From: Candidatus Poribacteria bacterium
GTDB lineage: Bacteria; Poribacteria; WGA-4E; JAJDTR01
Length of the DNA stretch: 62,492 nt
Direction: 5' to 3'
NCBI GenBank assembly: GCA_028820655.1
Contig: JAPPIK010000013.1
Coordinates: 1-62,492 of the forward strand
Both the position numbers and the translations under genes were made by a program. The notes beneath the pieces were generated by a model. It saw nothing but the letters and a program-made list of their open reading frames with translations. It was not told where the DNA came from and did no database searches. This document shows positions 8,496 through 18,158 of this stretch, in pieces. The first letter of the stretch is position 1; each line of letters begins with the position of its first letter.

Positions 8496-8623
8496 GAGTT
8501 TTCAGTCAAACTCAGCTCACATCGCAACTGCCTTCTTTCGAAAAAAAGTATCGGATGTAATAATTCGGGAACGTGCGGCTTCTACAAAGACAGCAACAAC
8601 CATTTTATGACGGAAGAGCACCT

Positions 8624-11446
8624 ATGCACACCGACGACGGACATATCGTTCATCAATGTCTCTCAGGGAACACAGAGGCGTTTGCGCTGCTGGTTGACAA
8701 GGACAAGGCGCGTCTTTTCGCGGTTGTGTACACGAAGGTCGGTCAGTTTGAAGACGCCGAGGATATTACACAGGATGTCTTCCTTAACGCATATAGAAAA
8801 TTGTCAACGTTACGGCGATGGGACAATTTCTATGCGTGGCTGTATTCAATCGCCTCCAACCGATGCAAGGAGTTTCACAGAGCCAAAGGACGAAGGCTTG
8901 ACGTGGCTTACCTTGCCGATCAAAGTGAGAATTACCAAGCGGACATGGATGCGCACGCGGAAAAACTGAGGAACGAGCAGATTCATGAGGCGTTGGATTC
9001 TCTCTCCGAGATTCACCGTCAAGTACTGGTGCTCCGTTACATGGCTGGCATGAGGAGCAAGGAGATTGCCCGGACGTTGCGAGTATCTCCGAATACTGTC
9101 AATCAGCGACTCCTGCGAGCCAGAACACAGTTGAAAGCAGTCTTGAGTGAGGAGGCTATTCCCATGATACCCACCGCGTTTGCCGACCGGAAACTACAGC
9201 CCGGATTCACAGTCCGTATCCTTGAACTCATCAAAGGCACTCAAATTCAGAGCGCGCCGCACAAGACCGCCCTTCCGTTTGGGTTGTCTGCCGCTGGCGC
9301 CGTGATAGTTTTGCTTTTAAGATTGGTTATACCGCAGAGTCCGCTTTATCCGGTGGGTGAGTGGCTGGGAGGGCCATTGCCCCTGAACACGCGAGTCTTC
9401 GAAAACGGAGAGCTTGCCGTTGATGCGCAGGCGACCGAAGTTGCGATTCTCAGCGGTGAACAGCGGGCGAACGGTCTTCGCAAGCAGGAGAAGACAGTCC
9501 AAGTGCCTTCCATCACTGGCGAGAATGCGAAATCAGACGAGAAAGAGAAAGCGATTACGAGCATATATCTCCCAAAAGATGCTTCCTGGGACCTGGACAT
9601 TTCGCCTGATGGCACGAAGATGGCATACCCCGGCAGAGGGGTCACGCCCTCAGGATATGAGTTTCAACTCATTGTGTCACCTCTCGTAGACGTATCAGGC
9701 GAAGTGCCGCCTACGCAGACGGTCTTGGTACATGGAGAGAAGACAACACAGTATTTTCAACCCAAGTGGTCGCCTAACGGAAAGTGGATCGCCTTCTTTC
9801 GTCAGGATAATCAACATCAAGGCGGAGAAGATCACGGAAGTGACATCGATGTATATCTTGTCCCTGCGGCTGGCGGCAATGCGCGTTTCCTCGCTCGAAC
9901 CGATTCTCAACAGCGTATGGGAGGGTTCAGTTGGTCGCCCGATAGCAAGAATATCGCCTTTGTCAAATGGACGGCAGAAAATGCGGACATTTACATCGTG
10001 TCGATTGCCACCGGAATTGTACGCCCTTTCACAGCGGATGGAAAAGGAAACATCTCTCCATCGTGGTCGCCTGACGGAAAGTGGATTTTCTATTTGTCGC
10101 AACGCGCTTCATCTCGGGATACAGGTTTCGGTTCTAGGCCTGTGTGGAAACAGCCGGTTGATGGAGGAAATGCTACACGAATCAATGTTGTTGACCACCA
10201 ACACCCGCTCATTTCCTCGCCTAATCAAAAATGGATTGCTCACAACTATGTTGTCGGTCAGGACGGAGAATTTTTGTTTCGCGGTATTGCTGTCGATCGT
10301 CTCAACGAAAACGGTGACTTAGTTGGAGAACCGATCGTCATTGAACCGGCGAAACTCAAGGAATCATTAAAGCTGTTGCGATGGACATCGTCAGAAAGGA
10401 TTTTCGTTTTGCAAGAAGATTACAGAGAGATGCTCTATGCCACACTCAACACCACAAATGGTGAGCGAAATTATCTCGATATTGATTCGACCAGTACGAA
10501 CATGGGTTTTACGTTCATTTCGTTCAAGAATGTGCAATGGCTTTCTGGCGGAAAACGACTATTTTTCCCATCCGACGAAATTTTTTCTGGCAAAGGTTCA
10601 CATCCCGAGTACACGCAAATTGATTCGCGTCCTGGGATTCTGGACATCGAGACGAATCATTTCACTACTATGCAACTTCCCGTTAGAACGTGGATTCATG
10701 AATTCGCACTGTCTCCTGATGAGAAACGGATTGCATTCGTACGTACAGTCAGTGGCAATCGCCTTCTGTACATCATGCCGGTGGGAGGAAGAACGGCCCA
10801 TCAACTGACAAGGGATGAACTTTTTCCATACGATCTGCGTTGGTCGCCCGATGGTCAAACAATCGCTTTCACCAATAGGATAAGAGGGACAACCGAGGGG
10901 CCAGAGTCACAACTTTGTGCTGTTTCCGTATCTGATGGTCAGGTGAAGATACTGGTAGATTCAGGATTGTGCAGGGAACCGGCTTGGTCGCCCGATGGCA
11001 CAATGCTGGCATACACCCAATATCCGTTTGACGACATCCACATTGTATCGGCAACCGGCGGGGATTCAAGGCAAATCACCAACACTCCCAAGCAACAGGA
11101 GTCGGAACTCACTTGGACATCCGATGGTAAGCGGCTCGCTTACAAGGTACACGGCGTAGAGTGGTGGGTTGTATCAATAGACGGTGGAAAACCAACGAAA
11201 CTGCATAGGAATCATATTCCGTCAAGTTGGTCATCGGATGGCACGTCATACCTCGCACTCGCACCTCACGGGGAATTGCTGCGCATATCACTTGACGGTG
11301 CCATACTGTCCGAACTCTCGGTTCGTGCTCCGATGCATGCTCAACCACTCTCCATTTCACCCGACGGCGAAACAATTCTCATATGGCATGTCGACTCGGA
11401 AAAGTCGTGCTGGGGCATTGATGTTAGTCACCTGGATGGTCTATGA
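8624..11446 (+). CDS. ECF sigma factor fused through a TM helix to a PD40/WD40-like beta-propeller
   Basis: A 940-aa protein from the ATG at 8624, which has GGAAGAG about 6 bp upstream; an in-frame GTG at 8573 is less likely. Residues about 20-90 are sigma-70 region 2 (DAEDITQDVF, 44-53) and 118-172 are region 4 with its helix-turn-helix (KEIARTLRVSPNTVNQRLLR). A hydrophobic segment at 218-236 can span the membrane. Residues about 315-940 carry repeated TolB/PD40-type blades, recognisable by WSPDSKNIAF, WSPDGKWIFY, LSPDEKRIAF, WSPDGQTIAF and WSPDGTMLAY. Inference: a cytoplasmic sigma factor tethered to an extracytoplasmic sensor, with no separate anti-sigma gene nearby. The fusion is continuous with no frameshift. 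Confidence 0.85.
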   Translation: MHTDDGHIVHQCLSGNTEAFALLVDKDKARLFAVVYTKVGQFEDAEDITQDVFLNAYRKLSTLRRWDNFYAWLYSIASNRCKEFHRAKGRRLDVAYLADQSENYQADMDAHAEKLRNEQIHEALDSLSEIHRQVLVLRYMAGMRSKEIARTLRVSPNTVNQRLLRARTQLKAVLSEEAIPMIPTAFADRKLQPGFTVRILELIKGTQIQSAPHKTALPFGLSAAGAVIVLLLRLVIPQSPLYPVGEWLGGPLPLNTRVFENGELAVDAQATEVAILSGEQRANGLRKQEKTVQVPSITGENAKSDEKEKAITSIYLPKDASWDLDISPDGTKMAYPGRGVTPSGYEFQLIVSPLVDVSGEVPPTQTVLVHGEKTTQYFQPKWSPNGKWIAFFRQDNQHQGGEDHGSDIDVYLVPAAGGNARFLARTDSQQRMGGFSWSPDSKNIAFVKWTAENADIYIVSIATGIVRPFTADGKGNISPSWSPDGKWIFYLSQRASSRDTGFGSRPVWKQPVDGGNATRINVVDHQHPLISSPNQKWIAHNYVVGQDGEFLFRGIAVDRLNENGDLVGEPIVIEPAKLKESLKLLRWTSSERIFVLQEDYREMLYATLNTTNGERNYLDIDSTSTNMGFTFISFKNVQWLSGGKRLFFPSDEIFSGKGSHPEYTQIDSRPGILDIETNHFTTMQLPVRTWIHEFALSPDEKRIAFVRTVSGNRLLYIMPVGGRTAHQLTRDELFPYDLRWSPDGQTIAFTNRIRGTTEGPESQLCAVSVSDGQVKILVDSGLCREPAWSPDGTMLAYTQYPFDDIHIVSATGGDSRQITNTPKQQESELTWTSDGKRLAYKVHGVEWWVVSIDGGKPTKLHRNHIPSSWSSDGTSYLALAPHGELLRISLDGAILSELSVRAPMHAQPLSISPDGETILIWHVDSEKSCWGIDVSHLDGL

Positions 11447-11828
11447 ATCATACTGGACAGCAAGAGGACATCGTCAAAAGCAACCTTATACCATTTCTCT
11501 AATTTGACGTTGCATAAACGACGTGAATTAAGCTGTTCCAATGCGGGGCAAGATGCCCCGTCTACGGAGAAAGAGAATGATGCAATTAAAAAATCAAATG
11601 CACTGATATTTAAGCGAAATTGTATTATATTTCTTTCGCACCAGGCTGAAACACACTTCCGATACTGTGATCATCACCGCTTCTAACTTCAACGTGACAT
11701 ATGCCTCTCGTCTTTCTCAAATTGCGTTTACAGTCCTAGCGGCGCTGTGCTACACTTCAGCAGATCACGATTTCCGCTACTTTCCGAAGTAGTCGGCTAC
11801 GAAATCCCATTTCCAACGGAGGAAGCTA
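11447..11828. other. spacer with a strong GC hairpin
   Basis: No gene is supported. The perfect hairpin CGGGGCA / AGA / TGCCCCG at 11544-11560, followed by TCTACGG, also occurs at 17795-17811, so it is a dispersed element rather than a dedicated terminator. The right end contains GGAGGAAG, the ribosome-binding site of the selenoprotein gene. Confidence 0.6.
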
Positions 11829-12170
11829 ATGACGGTAAATTGGATGTATTTCAGGAAGAACTGAAACTCCTGCCGAAAAGCGCAAGAGTTTCTTGACGCC
11901 AAAGGTATCGAAGTAGAAAGGCGAACAGACGCCGGGAAGGAGAAGTTTGATTCCGGTGCAGTGTGGGAGCGTCTTGAGAGCGCTGAATCCGTGCACGTTG
12001 TAAAAGGCAAAAGAGTTGATGTGTTCAACCCAAATGATGGATCGCAAGATGATATTCTTGCGGCGGTCATGGGTCGAAGCGGCAACCTACGCGCACCGAC
12101 ATTGAAGGTCGGGGACACATTCTTTGTTGGATTCAATGAGAAGTTGTATGAGGGGACTCTTGCGAAGTGA
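11829..12170 (+). CDS. ArsC/Spx-like selenoprotein, UGA at codon 12 read as selenocysteine
   Basis: The gene is 113 residues long if the TGA at 11862-11864 is decoded. The ATG follows a strong GGAGGAAG site. The frame reads MTVNWMYFRKN-U-NSCRKAQEFLDAKGIEVE and continues without interruption to GRSGNLRAPTLKVGDTFF-VGFNEKLYEG and a TGA stop. It therefore has a thioredoxin-fold N-terminus with a U-x-x-C redox motif and the C-terminal R-x-P, VG-F pattern of ArsC/Spx-like proteins. The full length matches the family size of about 115 aa. The part after the UGA keeps the motifs, which argues against decay. The Sec-versus-Cys version of this small family is recalled from general knowledge and was not searched. 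The function is probably a thiol/selenol oxidoreductase; arsenate reduction is not shown. Confidence 0.8.
11880..11899 (+). promoter_or_regulatory. candidate bacterial SECIS hairpin
   Basis: The stem GCG-CAAGA pairs with TCTTG-CGC with one bulged A (11896) and a three-base loop GTT (11888-11890). The loop starts with G and lies 23 nt after the UGA, within the 16-37 nt window described for bacterial SECIS elements. It lies inside the coding region, as expected for bacteria. A competing fold (11863-11869 with 11886-11892) also exists. Confidence 0.65.
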
Positions 12171-12544
12171 GGCAACTGGAAGGGAACGATTCAACTGTCT
12201 GTATTGAAACTACGAATATACCGGATGCGGTCTGAAGGATTCGGCGGGACGCCTAAGCGACTATCACCTCACCTTTTTGGCTGTGACCAATGGCTCCATT
12301 CCGGCGGTAATAAAGTCGTAACGGAATCGAATTTTGCGCCCGTCATCGCGGACCCCGCCATCGCGGCGCCAACCCAATATCTTGCGTCCTATCCTGATTC
12401 ACTTGATTGTTCTCCGCAGTCCATACTACATGACAAAGTGTCCCGGCATTTGCCAACCGTGGCTTGCAGGATGCCGCCGCTAAGCAAAAACGCGAATGCG
12501 ACGCAATGTCGGACGAATGTGTTAGGTGTTGCGAGCAACTCCGC
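12171..12544. other. 374-bp spacer without a recognisable gene
   Basis: A plus-strand open frame (12204-12704) runs antisense into the methyltransferase gene and has no familiar motif. The minus strand reads short stretches such as KILGWRRDGGVRDDGRKIRF in one frame, but without a start or continuation. No gene is called. Confidence 0.5.
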
Positions 12545-17738: not shown

Positions 17739-18158
17739 AAATCAATGTTCCTTCTTGCGGGAGTTTCAGCAAGTAACACTCGACACCTGACAAGCGGGGC
17801 AAGATGCCCCGCCTACGGAGTCGTGGAACATGCTTCACATTGCACTCCGCTGGAGTGCGGGATTCAGGGCATATCGTCGGCTATTGGCATTGGGGATCTC
17901 TATCGCGCTCACTATTCATTCGCTTGATCTCCGCTGGAGCGCCACGATTGGACGCATCATGATTCTATTGACATTGCACTCCGCTGGAGTGCAGACGCGA
18001 TGAGGAATCGTGGTCTATTGATATCTCACTCCGCTGGAGTGAAAAGCATTTCTCGAAACAACACCTCCTCAATGCCTGTCATAGATCGAAAAATGAGTGT
18101 TACGTTCCGAAAGAATTATTCCGACAGGGATAATGGGTGCACGTTAAATACGGAATTG
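17739..18158. repeat. repeat-rich spacer between GNAT and pyrophosphatase genes
   Basis: It holds the hairpin CGGGGCA / AGA / TGCCCCG (17795-17811), the palindrome CACTCCGCTGGAGTG three times (17841-17855, 17978-17992 and 18027-18041), the module ATCTCTATCGCGCTCACTAT (from 17896), and a composite copy (18017-18146) ending in ATTATTCCGACAGGGATAAT. No gene is supported. Confidence 0.75.

Follow-up and report, generated by a model that had tools for sequence, protein, structure and literature searches.

An ArsC/Spx-like gene with a conserved in-frame UGA in Candidatus Poribacteria, a predicted new member of a catalogued UxxC selenoprotein family

Relationship to described families

Selenoproteins related to arsenate reductases have been catalogued before. 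The Global Ocean Sampling selenoproteome of Zhang and Gladyshev (2008; PMC2398784) contains 42 sequences named "Arsenate reductase 2" (cd03032), with a UxxC motif, and a 2026 review (PMC13188914) lists NF041106 as an "arsenate reductase-like protein" with the motif UxxC, with a citation of that 2008 work. "Arsenate reductase 2," likewise an ArsC/Spx-related selenoprotein with UxxC, is equated here with NF041106 through the review's citation and not by sequence comparison. In Spx, a disulfide between C10 and C13 serves as a redox switch (PMC2801614).

The window analyzed here, a stretch of 62,492 nucleotides from Candidatus Poribacteria bacterium (contig JAPPIK010000013.1 of assembly GCA_028820655.1), carries a gene of this kind at positions 11829 to 12170 of the forward strand. 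Its conceptual protein matches NF041106 (ArsC_rel_Se_1, "ArsC family (seleno)protein") over model positions 1 to 107 of 107, with 123.1 bits against a curated cutoff of 85 and an E value of 7e-36, and all 13 members aligned in this study match the same model. The U/C-x-x-C motif expected near the N terminus of NF041106 is found at the same place, U12-x-S-C15 being invariant, and no difference from that family was found in this Poribacteria member. An earlier reading of the window from sequence only (the sequence-only reading) had presented the gene as a hidden selenoprotein. Since NF041106 exists and is already listed as a UxxC selenoprotein, the family is known, and the Poribacteria gene is a new, well-supported member of it and not a new kind.

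The Pfam model ArsC (PF03960) gives 16.5 bits, under its 24-bit gathering cutoff; glutaredoxin also matches under its cutoff, and TIGR01617 (Spx/MgsR) gives 27 bits against a cutoff of 75.05 and matches 8 of the 13 members, again below cutoff. The protein shares the fold and the position of the nucleophile with the ArsC arsenate reductases and YffB of PF03960, but it differs from them in its subthreshold score and in having Ala before the Pro where Spx and ArsC-type proteins have Arg. With Spx (PDB entries 1z3e, 3gfk, 6ghb, and 7f75), it shares the ArsC-type thioredoxin-fold architecture, a segment UNSCRKA that aligns with CTSCRKA of Spx, and a GYN motif near the C terminus. It differs from Spx in the predicted Sec, where Spx has Cys, in RAP in place of RRP, and in its length of 113 residues against 131 to 132, and the identity between the two is about 20%.

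The gene and its in-frame TGA

The gene starts with ATG at 11829 and stops with TGA at 12168 to 12170. With the in-frame TGA read as Sec, positions 11829 to 12167 (forward strand) translate into a 113-residue protein, MTVNWMYFRKN-U-NSCRK..., with Sec predicted at residue 12. That TGA (11862 to 11864, forward strand) is codon 12, opens the U-x-x-C motif (U12-N-S-C15), and is conserved in the homologues. The region of the ribosome-binding site, AACGGAGGAAGCTA (11815 to 11828, forward strand), contains a Shine-Dalgarno-like GGAGG directly 5' of the ATG, and GGAGG-like sites likewise lie upstream of the gene in many homologues. The start codon, the TGA, the MTVNWMYFRKN start, and the ribosome-binding site had all been given by the sequence-only reading, and they came out the same on re-reading. 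It had also anticipated that ordinary annotation would report only the last 69 residues or the antisense frame, and standard-code ORF calling gave exactly those two: a truncated ORF of 69 amino acids (11961 to 12170, forward strand), which is only the C-terminal portion of the real gene, and an antisense ORF of 132 amino acids (11777 to 12175, reverse strand), which had no match in a Pfam search and is judged spurious. Present in nearly every genome of its order, the gene illustrates how ordinary ORF calling can cut a predicted selenoprotein short or put an antisense ORF in its place.

Of 59 close genomes, including that of the window, 57 have the gene, always with a single TGA. A family-model search of 85 genomes across the phylum found it in 71, all of which belong to the order (73 genomes searched); the 12 genomes from outside the order gave no match. 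Every one of the 71 homologues has exactly one TGA, and within the order, the gene is near-universal and single-copy. Reading of 73 distinct loci placed the TGA at the identical codon every time; these loci include two from Desulfobacterales (L059 and L060) with 49% and 44% identity. The relatives carry TGA at residue 12 and Cys at residue 15, which bears out the proposal, made from the window's letters, that the UGA is the first position of a C-x-x-C-type redox motif. No Cys form of the subfamily was seen among the homologues, whose sampling outside Poribacteria is thin. In a profile search, Cys occupied the Sec position in distant Spx (CxxC) and glutaredoxin matches, and the classic pairing of Sec with Cys homologues therefore leans on these more distant families.

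The SECIS hairpin

A bacterial SECIS hairpin is assigned to positions 11880 to 11899 (forward strand) on the basis of conservation, covariation, and folding. It consists of the arm GCG-CAAGA, a GUU loop, and the arm UCUUG-(A)-CGC, and its invariant loop G, at 11888, is 23 nt after the UGA. The hairpin folds at -8.0 kcal/mol, and 5 of 200 shuffled sequences fold as well; by its energy, taken alone, it stands out only modestly. All 64 distinct sequences retain the four inner pairs and the loop G, and 55 of them retain the pair adjoining the loop. Covariation of the paired positions scores 0.246 in a set of 22 representatives; 500 shuffles average 0.094 and none reaches the observed value, and pairing with slid partners scores at most 0.096; RNAalifold, run on 22 sequences, independently picks the 11883 to 11895 core. 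Compensatory changes include A-U to C-G beside the loop at three loci (L062, L083, and L104), G-C to A-U and A-U to U-G in the two Desulfobacterales loci (L060 and L059, respectively), and a U-A/C-G exchange in the lower stem. At the first three loci, residue 20 changes from Glu to Ala along with the compensatory C-G pair at the loop, as if RNA pairing drove the amino acid change.

Codons 19 to 23 (CAA GAG TTT CTT GAC) show zero synonymous variation in 70 genes, whereas synonymous entropy averages 1.29 bits over 64 later well-conserved codons of the same genes. Kinship among the genomes is common to both codon sets and cannot explain this contrast, and we read the invariant codons as probable selection at the RNA level and as the strongest signal of the SECIS element. 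The hairpin is not attributed to chance because the TGA is conserved, codons 19 to 23 are invariant, and the covariation exceeds all shuffled and slid controls. A search of the window with Rfam at gathering scores gave zero hits; bacterial SECIS elements are short and varied, and this result is therefore given little weight. The hairpin at this position, with a G-first loop 23 nt from the UGA, had been proposed by the sequence-only reading; it is present, it forms on folding, and its inner pairs and loop G are conserved with covariation. The alignment provides a clean natural data set on SECIS elements: synonymous choice is lost under the RNA constraint, which is also accompanied by amino acid changes.

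Two other readings of this part of the gene were weighed and rejected. In one, the functional RNA signal is a different hairpin, GAAACUC/GAGUUUC, whose first arm begins inside the UGA codon and which gives the lowest energy when positions 11862 to 11901 are folded (-12.5 kcal/mol; z score, -3.2). However, this pairing cannot form in the genomes of family f4 (TGAACTTCT...) or in Desulfobacterales, RNAalifold favors the core of the other hairpin over it, and in a 102-nt fold of positions 11829 to 11930 it is the hairpin at 11880 to 11899 that forms. As the UGA-codon hairpin is not kept across families, whereas that at 11880 to 11899 is, we regard it as very improbable. The other reading treats the gene as a pseudogene stopped at the TGA, or the TGA as an assembly error, and sees a remnant in the conserved tail; the stop that a standard ORF caller meets at codon 12 would fit this. 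The comparative data refute it: the reading frame is intact on both sides of the TGA, the SECIS element is conserved, and the same TGA recurs in 71 separate genomes of the phylum as well as in Desulfobacterales, which excludes sequencing error and pseudogene decay and leaves this reading with virtually no probability.

Selenocysteine machinery

The genome to which the window belongs (5.88 Mb in 61 contigs, 95% complete), whose closest named relatives are metagenome-assembled genomes of Candidatus Poribacteria, has the complete set of genes dedicated to Sec insertion in bacteria. SelA (517 bits), SelB (351 bits), and tRNA-Sec (76.6 bits; anticodon tca by ARAGORN) are encoded in one cluster on contig 51 (30802 to 34063), and the gene for SelD (363 bits) likewise contains an in-frame TGA, which falls in a C-A-G-U motif. 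The search for selA, selB, selC, and selD that the sequence-only reading had suggested thus found all four. SelD itself would be a selenoprotein, with the in-frame TGA falling in VECAGUASKLDPG (locus L109, 1113 to 2183, on contig 22 of the same genome, G000). Most genomes carrying the gene have a full-length selA; a clear selA hit is absent in eight gene-bearing metagenome-assembled genomes (G021, G034, G043, G051, G071, G072, G076, and G083), which is likely explained by missing contigs. Eight of the twelve genomes outside the order have a full-length selA without the gene. Poribacteria encode selenocysteine machinery and appear to use it, and in the literature searched only two papers mention both Poribacteria and selenocysteine, each naming the latter once.

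We consider it very probable, from the comparative sequence data, that the gene encodes a genuine selenoprotein in which U-x-x-C forms the redox site. The sequence-only reading had interpreted the gene in this way and had named three findings that would speak against it, namely, homologues lacking Cys or Sec at residue 12, a genome without sel genes, and a TGA in error for TGC or TGT; none of these was encountered, and its interpretation appears sound.

Predicted fold and function

The AlphaFold model of the protein (pLDDT, 92.9; pTM, 0.86) has the order beta-alpha-beta-alpha-beta-beta-alpha-beta-beta-alpha, with U12 immediately before helix 1. Its best fold matches in the PDB are Spx, YffB, and ArsC-related structures, at moderate TM-scores of 0.50 to 0.58, and Spx also comes first in a sequence-profile search of the PDB. 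In the alignment of 13 diverse members, the invariant residues are W5, R9, U12, S14, C15, K37, E38, K59, G60, G82, R83, G85, L87-R88-A89-P90, F98, G101, and Y107. In the profile alignment, the family segment GRSGNLRAP places Ala89 at R92 of Spx (LRAPt against LLRRPI), and the ArsC-type Arg before the active-site proline is absent, Ala89-Pro90 being invariant. The equivalent Arg is one that we take to belong to the arsenate site of Escherichia coli ArsC. The Ala at this position argues against arsenate reduction and, weakly, against an Spx-type switch. The ArsC-like label given by the sequence-only reading holds for the fold and the family and not for the ArsC-type Arg position.

The product is best understood as a small redox protein of the thioredoxin fold, with an active site of the U-x-x-C type and its nearest kin among Spx/ArsC-related proteins; we think it fairly likely that its role is that of a thiol/selenol oxidoreductase as opposed to a regulator. 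Alongside the gene, the conservation of its UGA and SECIS element, the Sec machinery, and the predicted fold, all obtained by computation, we infer Sec insertion, redox chemistry, and substrate in the following scheme. During translation, the hairpin at 11880 to 11899 would recruit SelB carrying Sec-tRNA(Sec), and SelB-dependent insertion would place Sec at residue 12. The completed chain of 113 residues would have the U12-N-S-C15 active site at the N terminus of helix 1, where the Sec selenolate may attack an oxidized substrate (a disulfide or another oxidized thiol or metalloid substrate). Cys15 would then resolve the intermediate as an intramolecular Se-S bond, to be reduced by thioredoxin or a small thiol.

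Other functions have been weighed against this role. The name used in the 2026 review (PMC13188914), the ArsC-like fold, and the subthreshold Pfam ArsC match could all suit a true selenium-containing arsenate reductase, one that uses U12 to reduce arsenate and draws its electrons from glutathione or thioredoxin, but the family has Ala89 in GRSGNLRAP where Spx has Arg before the proline, Spx comes ahead of arsenate reductases in both the fold and the profile searches, no ars genes were recognized among the neighbors scanned in the window, and no neighbor is common to all families. The protein is probably not an arsenate reductase, and we consider such a function unlikely. The closeness of Spx among solved structures and profiles, the below-cutoff TIGR01617 matches in 8 of 13 members, the CxxC disulfide that acts as the switch in Spx (PMC2801614), and the near-universal, single-copy presence of the gene in the order would suit an Spx-like redox-sensing regulator that binds RNA polymerase, with an Se-S bond in place of the C10-C13 disulfide. 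This regulator is a doubtful candidate given the Ala at the position of Spx R92, the 27 bits against the TIGR01617 cutoff of 75, and the identity of only about 20% to Spx in the structural matches. In a related idea, which we regard as distinctly unlikely, the proteins form a Sec-only Spx-like subfamily, near-universal in one Poribacteria order and encoded directly downstream of selA in some genomes, whose function would be that of a redox switch based on selenium or the control of the selenium system.

Genomic context

The gene stands alone in the window: an ECF sigma factor/beta-propeller protein lies upstream on the same strand, and a methyltransferase lies downstream on the other strand. 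The upstream protein (8573 to 11446, forward strand; 957 amino acids) combines an ECF-type sigma factor (Sigma70 r2 and r4_2) with a PD40/TolB-like beta-propeller. In 54 genomes of family f2, the gene is flanked by a fixed pair of seemingly unrelated metabolic genes, oxidoreductase-like upstream and epimerase-like downstream, named by eye from their sequences. In the comparison of flanks, this pair was not common to families f1, f3, and f4, and no neighbor was common to all families, so no function follows from the flanks; the absence of a common neighborhood points to a putatively self-standing redox protein. Searches for plasmid DNA and plasmid proteins gave zero matches, and a scan of the window for further genes having both an in-frame TGA and a Cys close to it gave seven candidates, none of them convincing by eye.

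In both genomes of family f3 (loci L091 and L092; genomes G006 and G003), selA precedes the gene on the same strand, at a distance of about 73 bp. This neighborhood, together with the lack of Cys forms, makes the gene a reasonable target for functional work. A palindrome-containing repeat of 27 nt, GCGGGGCAAGATGCCCCGyCTACGGAG, also occurs in the window in two near-identical copies (11543 to 11569 and 17794 to 17820).
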